Shown here one piece after another: positions 4,093 to 36,960 of a DNA stretch of 41,540 nt; position 1 is the first letter of the stretch; the number at the start of each line of letters is the position of its first letter. Where the stretch lies: IMG/VR virus record IMGVR_UViG_3300048838_001126, positions 1-41,540 of that record, one strand, 5' to 3'. Origin of the DNA: a virus. The notes beneath the pieces are model-generated. The model made no database searches and was not told where the DNA came from. It was given only the letters and a program-made list of their open reading frames with translations. A program made the translations under genes and the position numbers.

Positions 4093-4117
4093 CGTGGAAC
4101 AAAATACCCCCTAAAAT
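4089..4117 (+). promoter_or_regulatory. Probable late promoter, sigma70 type
   Basis: TTGACG (4089-4094), a 17-base spacer, then TAAAAT (4112-4117). It overlaps the end of the HTH gene and points into the HNH, terminase and head genes. It is one of the few strong -35/-10 matches in the genome. Confidence 0.7.
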
Positions 4118-4144
4118 GATCATGCTGGATGAATTTCGAGAGTC

Positions 4145-4175
4145 GGCCGGGCGATGCCCCGGCCATTCGTGTTTT
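4145..4175 (+). terminator. Terminator-like hairpin just after the late promoter
   Basis: GGCCGGG (4145-4151), a 6-base loop, CCCGGCC (4158-4164), then ATTCGTGTTTT. The T tract is interrupted, so strength is uncertain. It lies within about 25-50 bases of the expected start of transcription, like lambda tR' after PR'. Confidence 0.5.
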
Positions 4176-4213
4176 AGGAGCAGAAAATGGTGTGACGACG
4201 AGGTTTTCACCCG

Positions 4214-4576
4214 ATGCCCCTCCGCGCTCCGCGACCGTGCCGGGCGGCCGGCTGCCCCGAACTGGTGACAGGTCGGGACGGCCTGTGCGCCCGGCACGCG
4301 CGCGAGAGGCGAGAGGCGCACGAGCGCACGCGGACGAACGCCGGGAAGCGCGGCTACGGCGCCGCCTGGCGGAAACTGCGGGCGGCGGTGATTGCTCGGG
4401 ATCCGATTTGCGTTGAGTGCCGGGTGAACCCGAGCACGGACGTTGATCACATTCTCCCGCGCGCAAGTGGCGGGACCGACGCGCTGAGCAATCTTCAGGG
4501 GCTGTGCCACCGTTGCCACTCGCGCAAGACGGCGCAAGCCGATGGGCGCTGGAGCCGGCGGGGGGAGGGGGGGTGA
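4214..4576 (+). CDS. HNH endonuclease, packaging-associated
   Basis: 120 residues. An N-terminal zinc-like cluster (CRAAGC and CARHARER), then CVEC, VDHILPRASGG (the catalytic HNH His), LSNLQGLCHRCHSRKT. Small HNH nucleases beside the terminase are standard in HK97-type cos phages and assist the terminase in cutting DNA. The ribosome-binding site is weak (GAGG). The gene is separated from the small terminase by a reverse-strand gene. Confidence 0.9.
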   Translation: MPLRAPRPCRAAGCPELVTGRDGLCARHARERREAHERTRTNAGKRGYGAAWRKLRAAVIARDPICVECRVNPSTDVDHILPRASGGTDALSNLQGLCHRCHSRKTAQADGRWSRRGEGG

Positions 4577-28681: not shown

Positions 28682-28990
28682 TTAAAAGGTGTATTGCTTC
28701 CCGAAGTTCCGCATCGGCGCGAGGCAGAACCACGTGACGCCGTGATCGGTCGTTGAGTAGGCTTCCGGCGTATTCAGCGTTTGCGGATTGATAATCATGA
28801 CCTTCACAAGGCCGGCTTCCGGGTTCGCCATCATGTGACGGGCAACGGCGCGGGCGGCCTTGATGCCGTCGCATCCGGGCGTGTAATAGACTGAGTTGTC
28901 GGCGAAAAACTGGGCGACCGTAAGCCCGGAGACCATGTGCGGCAACCGGTGCTGTGTGTGGGTTCTGAATTCGCTCTGCGTGCTTTCCAT
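28682..28990 (-). CDS. Small hypothetical protein, first gene of leftward operon
   Basis: 102 residues from ATG 28990 (AAGGAG seven bases upstream). Sequence includes LTVAQFFADNSVYYTPGCDG, KAARAVARHMMANPEAGLV and KVMIINPQTLNTPEAYSTTD. It looks like a compact alpha/beta protein; no family recognised. It is driven directly by the promoter at 29018-29046, so it may be made in the lysogen as an accessory factor. Confidence 0.7.
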   Translation of the reverse strand: MESTQSEFRTHTQHRLPHMVSGLTVAQFFADNSVYYTPGCDGIKAARAVARHMMANPEAGLVKVMIINPQTLNTPEAYSTTDHGVTWFCLAPMRNFGKQYTF

Positions 28991-29394: not shown

Positions 29395-30468
29395 TTAGTT
29401 TGCCGACTTTGCTGCGTTGCGCCGCGGATTGCTGACGGGCAATGCGGGGATCGTAACATCTTCGGGGCGCTGTCGGTAGTAGCGGGCGGCGACGGCGGGG
29501 GTGGTCCAGCCCATGATCTGCTGCAGGACGAGCATGCTGACGCGAGGGGCGAGGTGGGTGGCGGTGGTGGCGCGGATGTCATGCACGCGGCCGGGCGGGT
29601 AACCGGCGGTAGAAAGGACCTGATTCAAACGCTTGTGGAGGGCGACGATGGCGCAGGTGCGGCGGCGTTCATCGTCCGGGCTGCCCCAGCGCTCGCGCCA
29701 GACGACGTAGCCGGGGAGGATGCCGACGTCGGCGGGGGGGCGCAGCATCAGCTCGCGGGCCTCGGCGCTGAGGGGGGCGCGGCGGCCGGTGCGGCTGCGC
29801 TTGCTCCAGGGGTAATCGACGGCGCGCTCGCCGACGTGGCTGGTGTGCAGGCTGACGAGCTCGCCGACGCGGGCGCCAGTGAGGTAGAGGAGGAGGAACA
29901 CGTCGCCGTAGGTGGGGTCGGCGAAGAGGGCGCGCAGCTCAAGGTCTGAGTAGAGGCGCTCGCGCCGCTCGTCGGGCATGCGGGTGCCGTCGAACCATTG
30001 GCGGCTGGAGTAGCCGGCGGGCATGAGATCCCACTTGTCGAGCTGATTGAGAATGGCTCGGAGACTGGAGCGCAGGGAGTTGACGCCCATGGGGGCGTGG
30101 TCGCGGGCGAGGTCGGCGATGACCTCGGCGATGAAGCCGGGGGTGAGCTCGTCCAGGTAGCGGATGCGCCGGGCCTCGGCATGGCGGGCGAAATGGGCGA
30201 TTGCCTGCTCGTACTTGCGGATGGTGGCGGGGTGTTTGCGCGGGGTGAGGCGGGCGATGAGGGCGTCGAATGCCTGCCGCCAGGGGCGGCGGGTGAGGCG
30301 CTCGTGCTCACGGGCGAGCCAGACGGCGACGGCATCATCCGCCTGGCGGCGGGTGGCGGAGGCAGGGACGTCCAGCGCGAAACGCCGGCGCACGCCCCAG
30401 GCGTCGTAGAAATCGGCATACCAGCGGCCGCGGCGGCGGATGACGCGACTGTCACGAGATCTGGGCAT
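29395..30468 (-). CDS. int: Tyrosine-recombinase integrase
   Basis: 357 residues. The N-terminal arm-binding/SAM-like domain includes WYADFYDAWGVRRRF. Catalytic set: Arg 200 (LTGARVGELVSLH), Lys near 223, His 296 and Arg 299 (VHDIRATTATHLA), Trp 321 in the second His position (MGWT), nucleophile Tyr 330 (ARYYRQ). It integrates the phage into tRNA-Ser at attP. The start overlaps the preceding nuclease gene by 17 bases, so it may be co-expressed with the cargo genes in the lysogen. Confidence 0.95.
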   Translation of the reverse strand: MPRSRDSRVIRRRGRWYADFYDAWGVRRRFALDVPASATRRQADDAVAVWLAREHERLTRRPWRQAFDALIARLTPRKHPATIRKYEQAIAHFARHAEARRIRYLDELTPGFIAEVIADLARDHAPMGVNSLRSSLRAILNQLDKWDLMPAGYSSRQWFDGTRMPDERRERLYSDLELRALFADPTYGDVFLLLYLTGARVGELVSLHTSHVGERAVDYPWSKRSRTGRRAPLSAEARELMLRPPADVGILPGYVVWRERWGSPDDERRRTCAIVALHKRLNQVLSTAGYPPGRVHDIRATTATHLAPRVSMLVLQQIMGWTTPAVAARYYRQRPEDVTIPALPVSNPRRNAAKSAN

Positions 30469-31841: not shown

Positions 31842-32474
31842 TCAGGGCAAAATCATCACAACGCGCCAGATGTGACGGATCTCTGAGGCCTTCAGCTCGA
31901 TGGGATCGTAGGAGGGATTGAGCGGCTGCAGCAGGTAGCGGTCCGGTGAGAGCATGGCCACCTTCTTGATGAAGCTGCGTCCGTTCGTGTCCTGCACGAA
32001 GTGCACCGCCTTGTTCTTGAATCCAACCGTGGGGCTGACAATCACTCGCGACCCATTCGGGTAGCCCGGCTCCATGCTGTCGCCCCGGATCTCGAGCGCA
32101 AAGGCATTCGGATCATTAACGGGGATCGGCACGCTGCCGAGCATTCCGACACCGACCGGTGTGTCGCCGTCCAGGAAAATCGGGGCATCGGTCCCGCCGG
32201 CGGAAACACCGCTGAGCACCGGAATCTCCTTCGCCGCCAAATACTCCGCCCGCTCGTCCGTCAAGTACCAGCCATCAATGATGTCTGAGAGCGGGACGTC
32301 CAGGTATTCGGCGACAGAGAGCGGAAAATCCCAGGGTGGTGAGTACTTGCCGGAAAGCCACCGGCTCACCTGATCCCGGGAAGTGCCGTAGTGCCCGGCA
32401 AGGTCGGTAATGGACCGTCCCCGTGCCTTCAGAAGAGCTTTTACGTGGTCGCCCCGCAGGTTTTTATCGCCCAT
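31842..32474 (-). CDS. LexA/CI-like repressor with S24 self-cleavage domain
   Basis: 210 residues. HTH at about 20-45 (SITDLAGHYGTSRDQVSRWL). Cleavage site Ala92-Gly93 (VSAGGTD). Catalytic Ser 133 (RGDSMEPGYPNGS) and Lys 170 (SFIKKV). The family dimerises on operators, maintains lysogeny and cleaves itself with RecA after DNA damage, so the prophage is probably SOS-inducible. It is transcribed from the promoter at 32506-32534, divergently from the Cro-like gene. Confidence 0.95.
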   Translation of the reverse strand: MGDKNLRGDHVKALLKARGRSITDLAGHYGTSRDQVSRWLSGKYSPPWDFPLSVAEYLDVPLSDIIDGWYLTDERAEYLAAKEIPVLSGVSAGGTDAPIFLDGDTPVGVGMLGSVPIPVNDPNAFALEIRGDSMEPGYPNGSRVIVSPTVGFKNKAVHFVQDTNGRSFIKKVAMLSPDRYLLQPLNPSYDPIELKASEIRHIWRVVMILP

Positions 32475-32640: not shown

Positions 32641-32910
32641 ATGAAAACCTTTGGCGCAACGCTTCGGGAACTGCGCGGCGGCCGGTCTCAAGACGAGGTC
32701 GCCCGCAAGGCGGGCATCACTAAAGAGACCTACGGGCGCATTGAGCGCGGCGAAGTTTCGAACCTGCGAACAGCCACACTGGTGGGAATCATCCGCGCCC
32801 TGGGCGTCTGGCCCGACCAGGAAGGACTCGACGGGCGCACCGCGACAGTGATCGGCATGCTCGACGCAATCAGCAACGAAGTTCCCCAGGCGCAGGAGCC
32901 GGCCGCATGA
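32641..32910 (+). CDS. Cro-like HTH regulator
   Basis: 89 residues from ATG 32641. FGATLRELRGGRSQDEVARK, AGITKETYGRIERGEVSNLR is an XRE-type helix-turn-helix. It is the first rightward early gene, opposite the repressor, and is thus the presumed Cro. AGAGGGAA upstream is the ribosome-binding site. The last 20 residues are flexible. The stop overlaps the next start. Confidence 0.88.
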   Translation: MKTFGATLRELRGGRSQDEVARKAGITKETYGRIERGEVSNLRTATLVGIIRALGVWPDQEGLDGRTATVIGMLDAISNEVPQAQEPAA

Positions 32911-34536: not shown

Positions 34537-34809
34537 ATGCCGCGCGCATTCCTTTCCCGCGCCCATGAGGGAACGCCCGTCGCGCCGGTGGCGGCGAAAC
34601 GCTGGCTGAGTTTTCAGGAGTTGTGCGCCTACCTGGACTGCGGGCGCACGGTGGCAAAGGAATTCATCCGGGACAATCGGCTGCACGCGGCGCCGAGGAT
34701 CCTGGGGCGGCGCAACCTGCTGTTCGACCGCGAGGAAATCGACCGCGTGCTCGAGGCACGTTTGCATCTGCCGGGCGAGCTGCGCCTGGTGGCGGGGGAG
34801 AGCCGATGA
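34537..34809 (+). CDS. AlpA/excisionase-like DNA-binding protein
   Basis: 90 residues. LSFQELCAYLDCGRTVAKEF, then GRRNLLFDREEIDRVL, is the winged-helix MerR/AlpA/Xis pattern (helix-turn-helix, then a wing, then an E-I-D-R helix). Candidate excisionase or early activator; it lies far from the integrase but in the lytic operon, where Xis would be made on induction. The stop overlaps the next start. Confidence 0.75.
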   Translation: MPRAFLSRAHEGTPVAPVAAKRWLSFQELCAYLDCGRTVAKEFIRDNRLHAAPRILGRRNLLFDREEIDRVLEARLHLPGELRLVAGESR

Positions 34810-35264
34810 ACACCCCGATGCAGATCGAGCCGTCGCGCCATGACGGGCCGCTGGATGTGCTGCCGGGTGAGGAGCGGCTGCTCCCGGACTGGAAACAGAA
34901 GTGGCAGCAGAAATGCGCGGAGATCGAAGGGAAGCGTCCGGTGCGTGGTGACGGGCCGGAGGCGCGGCCGGCGGGCATGGGGTCCGCCGGACCGGACTTG
35001 CGGGGGACTGGATCCCGCGACACCGCACCGGGGGGCGCGGCGCAATCCGCAGTTGACGGATCGCGCCGGCCGGACGGCACCCGGAGCGCGCACTGTCGGC
35101 CTGGCGCCCCCCACGGCGGGCCGATGCCGTCCGCCATTGGCGGACACCCCGGAGACCCGGCAATCCCCACGGAGCCCCCCTGCTCCGCGCCGGGTCTCCA
35201 CTCCCACTCATTTCAACTGACGCAGGAACCGCTCCCTTTCGCGGGGGCACGGAGACCGGCATGA
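34806..35264 (+). CDS. Hypothetical ORF whose 3' half overlaps a structured RNA candidate
   Basis: 152 residues from ATG 34806 (GGGGGAG upstream). The first 55 codons look protein-like (LDVLPGEERLLPDWKQKWQQ, then KCAEIEGK). The rest is Gly/Pro/Arg/Ala-rich with low complexity and coincides with a run of perfect inverted repeats (34981-35199). Its stop overlaps the next ATG (ATGA), which argues that the frame may still be translated to the end. Either a short protein followed by an RNA element, or a dual-use sequence. No family recognised. Confidence 0.5.
   Translation: MNTPMQIEPSRHDGPLDVLPGEERLLPDWKQKWQQKCAEIEGKRPVRGDGPEARPAGMGSAGPDLRGTGSRDTAPGGAAQSAVDGSRRPDGTRSAHCRPGAPHGGPMPSAIGGHPGDPAIPTEPPCSAPGLHSHSFQLTQEPLPFAGARRPA
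34981..35199 (+). ncRNA. Candidate multi-helix structured RNA (three-way junction)
   Basis: Helices read by eye: GGTCC/GGACC (34981-34993); GCGGG/CCCGC (35000-35018); closing helix GGGGGGCGC (35030-35038) with GCGCCCCCC (35104-35112). The closing helix encloses hairpin A: GGCGC (35039-35043)/GCGCC (35063-35067) plus ATCCG (35045-35049)/CGGAT (35057-35061). It also encloses hairpin B: GGCCG.GAC (35068-35075)/GTCGGCC (35095-35101). Then GTCCGCCA/TGGCGGAC (35129-35145). Last, GGAGACCCGGC (35151-35161)/GCCGGGTCTCC (35189-35199) enclosing GGAG/CTCC. The helices nest without conflict. No T tract follows. I know no matching family. Confidence 0.6.
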
Positions 35265-35625
35265 GCGAAATCATCGGCAATGTGACGCTGGTGACCCTGC
35301 GCGGCGGCGCCGCGGTGGAGAGGTGAACAACGAGCTGCGGCGGGTGATCGAGAACATCCTCGACCCGAACACGCCGGCGAAAAAGAAGCGGAGCGTGACG
35401 CTGAAAATCGTGTTCATCCCGGACGAAAGCCGGGAGCAGAACCGCGTGGAGATTTCCTGCACGAGCGTTCTGGCGGCGGCGCGGGAGAGCGCGACCACCG
35501 TCTGGCTGCAGGAGGACGTGCAGGGGAACATCCACGCCAACGAATCGAACTACCGCCAGCCGAACCTCGGCTTCGAGGGCGAGGCGGAAAACGTGGCGCC
35601 GATGCGCCAGGGAGAAAGCGGATGA
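35261..35625 (+). pseudogene. Phage 'replication terminator'-type protein, split by a -1 shift
   Basis: ATG 35261, with GGAGA upstream, opens MSEIIGNVTLVTLRGGAAVER and stops at TGA 35324-35326. The -1 frame continues from GTG 35323: VNNELRRVIENILDPNT, KKKRSVTLKIVFIPDESREQ, to a stop at 35625. From memory, a family in Firmicutes phages has L.GGA..E..N.EL..V..NI.DPNT in one frame, so here one base appears missing or a ribosome must shift. It could instead be two coupled ORFs, the second of 100 residues. The 35323 GTG has no well-spaced ribosome-binding site. It overlaps the next gene by ATGA. The function of the family is not established. Confidence 0.6.
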
Positions 35626-36323
35626 TTGACTCGACCTTCATTGACCGGATCACGGAGCTGGCGCAGGAGCAGGTGCTGGAGATCAATGGCCTGAGCTACT
35701 CGCCGCAGACGCTGCACCTGATCGCGCACCCGGAGCCGAAACCGCTGCAGTTTTCCTCGCTGGGCGGCCTCGTCGACCTGGCGCGGGGAGAGTTCGACGG
35801 CGAGGAGGATGAGCTGCTGGCGCACATCGTGGACCCGTTCACGGTGCAGCTGCTCGGCAAATTGCTGCCGGACACGATGCAGCGCCGGGTCTTCGCCGTC
35901 GCCAAAGCGCCGGCAATCTCGTTCATGTTCGGTTCCTATTTCGAGGCGGAGCCCTTCCTGATCGGCCTGAAAACCCAGTTTGTGCAGACCGAGAAAACGG
36001 CGCTGATCACGCGGCTGGTGGGCAACCTGACGGACGCCAAAGAAGTGAACCAGCTGGACGACGGCTTCAGCCAGAAGGTGGTCGTGAAGGCCGGGATTGA
36101 CACCGCCGACAAAAAGGTGGTGCCGAACCCGATCAAGCTGCAGCCCTTCCGCACCTTCCGCGAGGTGGAGCAGCCGGAGAGCGATTTCCTGCTGCGCCTG
36201 CGCCAGGGCGGCGAGGTGGCGCTGTTCGAGGCGGACGGCGGCGCCTGGCGGCTGGCCGCGATGGCGAGCCTGCTCATCTGGCTGAAGGAGCATCTGCCGC
36301 AAACGGTGACGGTGCTCAGCTGA
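35622..36323 (+). CDS. Conserved phage protein of the 'DGFSQ/EVEQPES' type
   Basis: 233 residues. The stretches QTEKTALITRLVGNLTD, LDDGFSQKVVVKAGI, NPIKLQPFRTFREVEQPESD and ALFEADGGAWRLAA match, from memory, a protein family found next to the 35261-type gene in Firmicutes phages. The function there is unknown; position near recombination and replication genes suggests DNA metabolism. It is complete in length and ATGA-coupled. Confidence 0.75.
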   Translation: MIDSTFIDRITELAQEQVLEINGLSYSPQTLHLIAHPEPKPLQFSSLGGLVDLARGEFDGEEDELLAHIVDPFTVQLLGKLLPDTMQRRVFAVAKAPAISFMFGSYFEAEPFLIGLKTQFVQTEKTALITRLVGNLTDAKEVNQLDDGFSQKVVVKAGIDTADKKVVPNPIKLQPFRTFREVEQPESDFLLRLRQGGEVALFEADGGAWRLAAMASLLIWLKEHLPQTVTVLS

Positions 36324-36338
36324 CATTCCCTACCACAA

Positions 36339-36472
36339 CGGGAGCCGCGTGAGCCGGGCATGTGGCCCTTCGGCAAGGCCGGTGGCGAAAGCCATCCCAG
36401 CATGACCCGGAGCCTCCCGCGCCGCCGTCGGTAGCACGTGGACAGCGAGCAGTGCGACGGAGCAACGGCGCG
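36339..36472 (+). ncRNA. Candidate structured leader RNA
   Basis: In the 175-base gap: CGGGAG (36339-36344)/CTCCCG (36414-36419); CCGGGCATG (36354-36362)/CATG-A-CCCGG (36401-36410); inside, GGCC/GGCC (36364-36380) and GGTGGC-GAAA-GCCATC (36381-36396, GNRA loop). A second domain follows: CGCGCCG (36418-36424)/CGGCGCG (36466-36472) with CCGTCG (36425-36430)/CGACGG (36455-36460). It ends 26 bases before the ATG at 36499, so it may act as a 5' leader. The two domains share two bases, which could allow switching. Confidence 0.6.
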
Positions 36473-36498
36473 GGGGGATTTACCGAGGAGACGCGGAA

Positions 36499-36744: not shown

Positions 36745-36760
36745 TTTTTCCTCACCCCGC

Positions 36761-36799
36761 GGGGGCGGCAGGACGGCGACCCGGTCACCCCCCTTTTTT
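36761..36799 (+). terminator. Probable intrinsic terminator
   Basis: GGGGG (36761-36765) and CCCCC (36788-36792) flank a GC-rich interior, followed by C and T6 (36794-36799). It would end the transcript of the gene at 36499 and insulate the RNA candidate downstream. Confidence 0.6.
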
Positions 36800-36812
36800 C
36801 GATCTTTTGAGT

Positions 36813-36945
36813 TGTGCTCTCGCGAGGGGGACAAAACCTCCTGGTGACGGACTAAATGAGCCGGAAGCCTCCCCGGTTGGCTGATCACCGCCGGGAAAAG
36901 GTTGGAGCCCGGTGATGGACACGGGCCGCGCAGAGCACAGTTTTT
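36813..36945 (+). ncRNA. Candidate small RNA closed by a 12-bp helix, T5 tail
   Basis: TGTGCTCT-CGCG (36813-36824) pairs with CGCG-C-AGAGCACA (36927-36939), 12 bp with one bulge, followed by G and T5 (36941-36945), a terminator-like 3' end. Inside: AGGGGG/CCTCCT (36825-36842, loop ACAAAA); GGTGA (36843-36847)/TCACC (36885-36889) with an inner CCGG/CCGG hairpin whose loop holds GCCTCC; and CCGGG (36891-36895)/CCCGG (36908-36912), or alternatively GCCCG/CGGGC (36907-36926). A terminator at 36761-36799 lies upstream. I see no clear promoter, so it may be processed. Confidence 0.65.
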
Positions 36946-36960
36946 CCACGGGAGGGCGCG

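Follow-up and report, generated by a model that had tools for sequence, protein, structure and literature searches.

A palindrome-rich, apparently lineage-specific non-coding spacer in the early operon of an orphan temperate phage, and a separate three-hairpin candidate RNA in Bacillaceae prophages

The early operon of the temperate tailed phage in IMG/VR virus record IMGVR_UViG_3300048838_001126 (41.5 kb, GC 66%; the whole 41,540-nt stretch analysed is referred to as the window) contains, at 34956-35250, a hairpin-dense segment of ~76% GC, assigned to neither strand, in which a reading frame stays open and coding signal is absent. Direct observations are the helices, the disappearance of coding signal and the lack of relatives; the reading that we favour, with a probability of roughly 45%, is that the segment represents a lineage-specific, palindrome-rich non-coding spacer, which in the early mRNA would be no more than a passive cluster of hairpins. 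The spacer is flanked by a small orphan gene on its 5' side and the phrog_997/DUF2303 gene pair on its 3' side, and would be transcribed within the early polycistronic message, where it would fold into a series of very stable hairpins. Any action would most likely be passive, keeping translation of the upstream ORF apart from translation of phrog_997 and slowing ribosomes, nucleases or RNA polymerase at this point, with a presumed effect on expression. Because the excess of structure is modest when the ends are chosen without bias, it is almost as probable that the spacer has no role at all.

The original prediction had placed the structure in an early operon, and the gene arrangement bears this out: an S24-type repressor gene occupies 31842-32474 on the minus strand, tightly packed rightward genes start at 32641 on the plus strand, and an integrase gene is found at 29395-30393. 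The phage itself is an orphan, distant from known relatives: the best relatives of its terminase are 55-57% identical at most and the closest relatives of its DUF2303-like protein only 43-44%. Directly 3' of the spacer lies the phrog_997 gene (35261-35625, plus strand), annotated 'replication terminator', which possesses its own Shine-Dalgarno-like GGAG and starts ~60 nt 3' of the last spacer hairpin; it is followed by the DUF2303-like gene (phrog_1029; 35622-36323, plus strand), which served to seek syntenic relatives. The phrog_997 gene has an unusual structure of its own, in that the conserved N-terminus (35261-35323, MSEIIGNVTLVTLRGGAAVER) and the remainder, from a GTG at 35323, are in different frames, the second part being in the -1 frame relative to the first, and the two parts are continuous in relatives. 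No slippery heptamer was seen around the frame break (35261-35325), which may be genuine, may mark a site of recoding or may stem from an error in assembly.

All of the helices listed in the original prediction are present, as read off the sequence and from folding. Two small plus-strand hairpins, GGTCC-GCC-GGACC (34981-34993, z -1.6) and TTGCGGGG...CCCGCGA (34998-35020, z -2.7), precede a plus-strand three-way junction at 35030-35112, whose 9-bp closing helix pairs GGGGGGCGC (35030-35038) with GCGCCCCCC (35104-35112) around two hairpins, one at 35039-35067 consisting of two perfect 5-bp stems with a 1x1 mismatch between them and a 7-nt loop, the other at 35068-35101, likewise confirmed in the sequence. 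The junction scores z -2.43, with 2 of 200 shuffles as stable, and in the minimum free energy structure of 34981-35199 it is kept, but inside an extra outer helix that starts at 34981. Further 3' are the strand-symmetric 17-base palindrome GTCCGCCATTGGCGGAC (GTCCGCCA-T-TGGCGGAC; 35129-35145), with z -3.72 for the ends 35126-35148, and an 11-bp perfect inverted repeat (35151-35161/35189-35199, no strand assigned) that encloses a GGAGC/GCTCC hairpin. This 49-nt distal hairpin (35151-35199) is the strongest single structure, with z -6.48 and none of 200 shuffles as stable. The distal hairpin and the 17-base palindrome are individually solid and clearly beyond chance, the three-way junction is so moderately and the small upstream hairpins weakly, with the proviso that these element-by-element z-scores also rest on chosen ends.

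How unusual the region is as a whole depends on where it is taken to begin and finish. The claim that such nesting is unlikely by chance stands only in part: structure does exceed chance, with -133.9 kcal/mol, z -4.13 and 0 of 200 shuffles for 34981-35199, but these ends begin and finish on helices, so that the score is biased, and the excess is modest (about -2.4) with unbiased ends. With ends set by the loss of coding signal (34956-35250), z is -2.26 on the plus strand and -2.51 on the minus strand, and for 34920-35262, whose ends were not picked on helices, the values are -2.86 and -2.56. The spacer thus illustrates how helix-chosen ends inflate a folding z, here -4.1 versus about -2.4. Among random 219-nt windows of other high-GC phages, z was -4.1 or lower in 1 of 300, and none of the 300 reached -133.9 kcal/mol; in the same phage, windows 4101, 6301 and 6401 have z as low or lower, two of them within the terminase gene. 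With 15 shuffles per window, the genome-wide fold scan carries much noise, and the windows that ranked highest in it were scored anew.

No relative of the spacer was found in the collections scanned. The original prediction had proposed a search of Rfam, and the spacer matches no Rfam family: the window gave no match at the gathering threshold and, at E <= 10, two chance matches, both outside the region. The spacer DNA has no significant counterpart in 50,697 phages or 72,556 plasmids, none in 35 records with related terminases, and none in the few genomes tried. PHROGs, Pfam, phages and viral contigs contain nothing that matches P0001, the peptide of the open frame spanning the spacer; its N-terminal 60 amino acids and the 186-amino-acid neighbouring protein, used as queries, found no relatives; and a single-sequence covariance model of the junction returned nothing above chance. 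Searches with the phrog_997 and DUF2303 proteins yielded only relatives of ~40-44% identity, in which the upstream DNA is unrelated, and the DUF2303 gene occurs in none of the 35 terminase-relative records. Exact-arm matches to the 11-bp helix (1 with 11-bp arms and 11 with 10-bp arms) share neither flanks nor synteny, and were rejected as relatives. With no detectable relatives, the spacer is, as far as sequence comparison can tell, lineage-specific.

The lack of relatives at the locus also speaks for a functionless scar, in which GC-rich palindromic DNA of foreign or recombinational origin, REP- or MITE-like debris, would have extended the frame of the small upstream gene. GC content jumps to 0.75-0.79 versus ~0.66 around the segment, GC skew flips, and the two strands fold about equally, as palindromic DNA should. 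The REP/BIME or MITE class of palindromic elements, as outlined in PMC3733652, resembles the spacer in its GC-rich palindromes, strand symmetry and intercistronic location, but no repeated copies, conserved tag or flanking duplication were found for the spacer. It is single in the phage, with no second copy in the 41,540-nt window and no copy in the phages and plasmids above or the few genomes tried, and neither flanking direct repeats nor terminal inverted repeats were recognised. A scar ranks second among the readings, close behind the passive spacer.

Less likely is a dedicated regulatory RNA, be it an antiterminator like HK022 put, an attenuator, a decoy or a sponge, encoded in the early message or on the opposite strand. 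The position in the early operon, the nesting of the helices, the z of -6.5 for the distal hairpin and the z of -4.1 for the region by the helix-chosen ends all speak for such an RNA, as does the existence of an intercistronic RNA structure 5' of the same gene family in Bacillaceae prophages (described below). Against it, no homologue of the DNA, the peptide or the structure was found, no promoter-like site was found in the spacer region, and the transcribed strand is not extra stable, the minus strand folding to -145.0 versus -133.9 kcal/mol for the plus strand at similar z. Folding of both strands of the spacer region thus revealed no strand preference and, since the two fold similarly, no sign of selection on the mRNA strand. 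The Bacillaceae RNA is also absent from the window, where model R2 matches best at 28861 on the opposite strand, with an E of 1.9, and model R3 has no match.

HK022 put, EAR and conAn2 are described, in PMC9378689 and PMC8955417, as processive-antitermination RNAs that are structured and found in early or operon-proximal transcripts; the spacer is likewise predicted to form RNA structure in such a transcript, but it is GC-rich and no sequence or structural relative of it was found. Like GOLLD, ROOL and other large Rfam non-coding RNAs, it is a large structure of nested helices from the DNA of a phage or phage-like element, but it has no match at the gathering threshold, and with the Bacillaceae three-hairpin RNA it shares its position relative to the phrog_997/DUF2303 genes, but differs in hairpin order, and no loop-loop complementarity was seen in it. 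Given the absence of detectable relatives and the modest excess of structure, nothing shows that the spacer is a functional RNA; since its helices do exist and it does not code for protein, a regulatory RNA is nonetheless conceivable, if improbable. The strongest version, a large lineage-specific structured three-way-junction RNA controlling early expression or replication in an unstudied high-GC phage lineage, is an improbable candidate, and were relatives with covarying pairs to appear, the spacer would be a new phage RNA.

Equally improbable is that the segment is simply the tail of P0001, a disordered Gly/Pro/Arg-rich coding sequence in which the palindromes are incidental. The frame (34806-35264) runs for 459 nt without a stop and has ATGA overlaps at both ends; at its 3' end it overlaps the next gene by the 4 nt ATGA, as genuine operon neighbours do, so that ribosomes might translate the whole of it, but a stop-free run of this length would not be rare at 76% GC, judging from base composition. 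Only the N-terminal ~50 codons (34806-34955, plus strand) have a positive codon score and a GC content by codon position (0.72/0.42/0.82) that is not flat. The coding signal drops out near 34955 and resumes at the phrog_997 start, and over most of the length of the spacer it is absent in all six frames. Across 34956-35225, codon scores are negative and GC by codon position is flat (0.76/0.73/0.80), the second-position value of 0.73 lying above the maximum of 0.70 in 779 gene windows of the phage. Moreover, the structure exceeds that of synonymous permutations in which peptide and codons are preserved (z -2.1; 6 of 400 match its stability) and of codon-order shuffles (z -3.6, 0 of 400), and so does not simply follow from the peptide. 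The segment 34956-35250 does not code for protein, and the earlier remark that the overlapping ORF is of low complexity here was right.

A DNA-level site, such as an origin, a set of primosome-assembly hairpins or a palindromic operator for an early replication protein, would suit the perfect palindromes, the strand-symmetric folding and the 'replication terminator' annotation of the neighbour, but is very improbable, given that there are no iterons and no AT-rich unwinding element and that GC peaks here.

Two further identities were rejected. A structured 3' end, as suggested in the original prediction, is disfavoured because no U-tract follows the last hairpin (35199 is followed by ACTCCCACTCATTTC), nothing resembling a terminator was found within 34956-35262, and the next gene begins only ~60 nt further on; an intrinsic terminator was discarded on the first two grounds. 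ARAGORN calls a tRNA-Val(aac) at c34992-35090 on the minus strand, and none of 2000 shuffles yields such a call, but position 33 is a C, the T-loop has no TTC, the acceptor stem contains mismatches and the Rfam tRNA model gives no match. We judge the call to be a chance cloverleaf in palindromic DNA, albeit one that would lead annotation pipelines to place a tRNA at 34992-35090 on this strand.

When the sequence 5' of phrog_997 was scored in 85 distinct relatives, a different, conserved element came to light, a three-hairpin RNA of Bacillaceae prophages that is an unnamed, separate and well-supported candidate, likely more interesting than the spacer. Hairpin 1 is formed by GACAGG/CCTGTC or CGACAAGA/TCTTGTCG, hairpin 2 is long and can reach 17 bp, and the third, GATGC/GCATC, stands immediately 5' of the Shine-Dalgarno sequence. 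Copies often lie just 5' of phrog_997 (L132:5488-5578, L135:5472-5578, L150:5458-5568, L083:3450-3553, L145:5471-5566 and L266-L280 at about 1501-1600), and some are found 5' of other small genes instead. In an alignment of five members that was not fitted to the structure, and from which the apical loop of hairpin 2 had been trimmed beforehand, 12 of the 17 hairpin-2 pairs are changed on both sides. An alignment of 21 members, this one fitted to the structure, has 97.3% of its cells paired and shows strong covariation, with changes on both sides in 18 of 22 pairs; none of 500 shuffles and no slid version comes near.

Among 397 genomes of the order, a covariance model of this RNA found it in 27 at E <= 0.01, only the stronger of these matches having been inspected. 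A wider draw from the class gave it in 6 of 399 genomes, and a draw from another phylum in 0 of 198. Plus-strand matches score far above minus-strand matches (for example, 67 versus 16.5 bits), as an RNA predicts. No Rfam match was obtained at E <= 0.1, and plain blastn of single members against phages and plasmids returned nothing, because the sequence varies too much. The loops of hairpins 1 and 3 are more complementary within sequences (68) than between sequences (55.6; 0 of 2000, by an imperfect parsing script), which suggests a kissing interaction between them; that the RNA might be a put-like or conAn-like antiterminator is only a guess based on its position. In a Deltaproteobacteria MAG, a strong hairpin, TCGTCATTCGATTATT...AATCGAATGACGA, was also seen 5' of phrog_997 (L126:5405-5625, z -5.6), and is unrelated to the Bacillaceae RNA.

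Other structured stretches were noted in the phage itself. The early operon has a second structured non-coding gap at 36324-36498, where CTCCCGCGCCGCCGTCGG...CGGCGCGGGGGG forms a long imperfect inverted repeat and the fold z is -2.4 to -3.6, depending on the chosen ends. A further non-coding gap of ~215 nt, at 36745-36960, carries inverted repeats rich in GC as well as T-runs (CCCCCCTTTTTT at ~36789). At 4112-4300, ahead of and into the start of an HNH-type gene, an inverted repeat CCTAAAA...TTTTAGG encloses a GGCCGGG hairpin and a very long GC-rich hairpin occupies ~4235-4297, the windows of this stretch having fold z values of -3.5 to -4.9.
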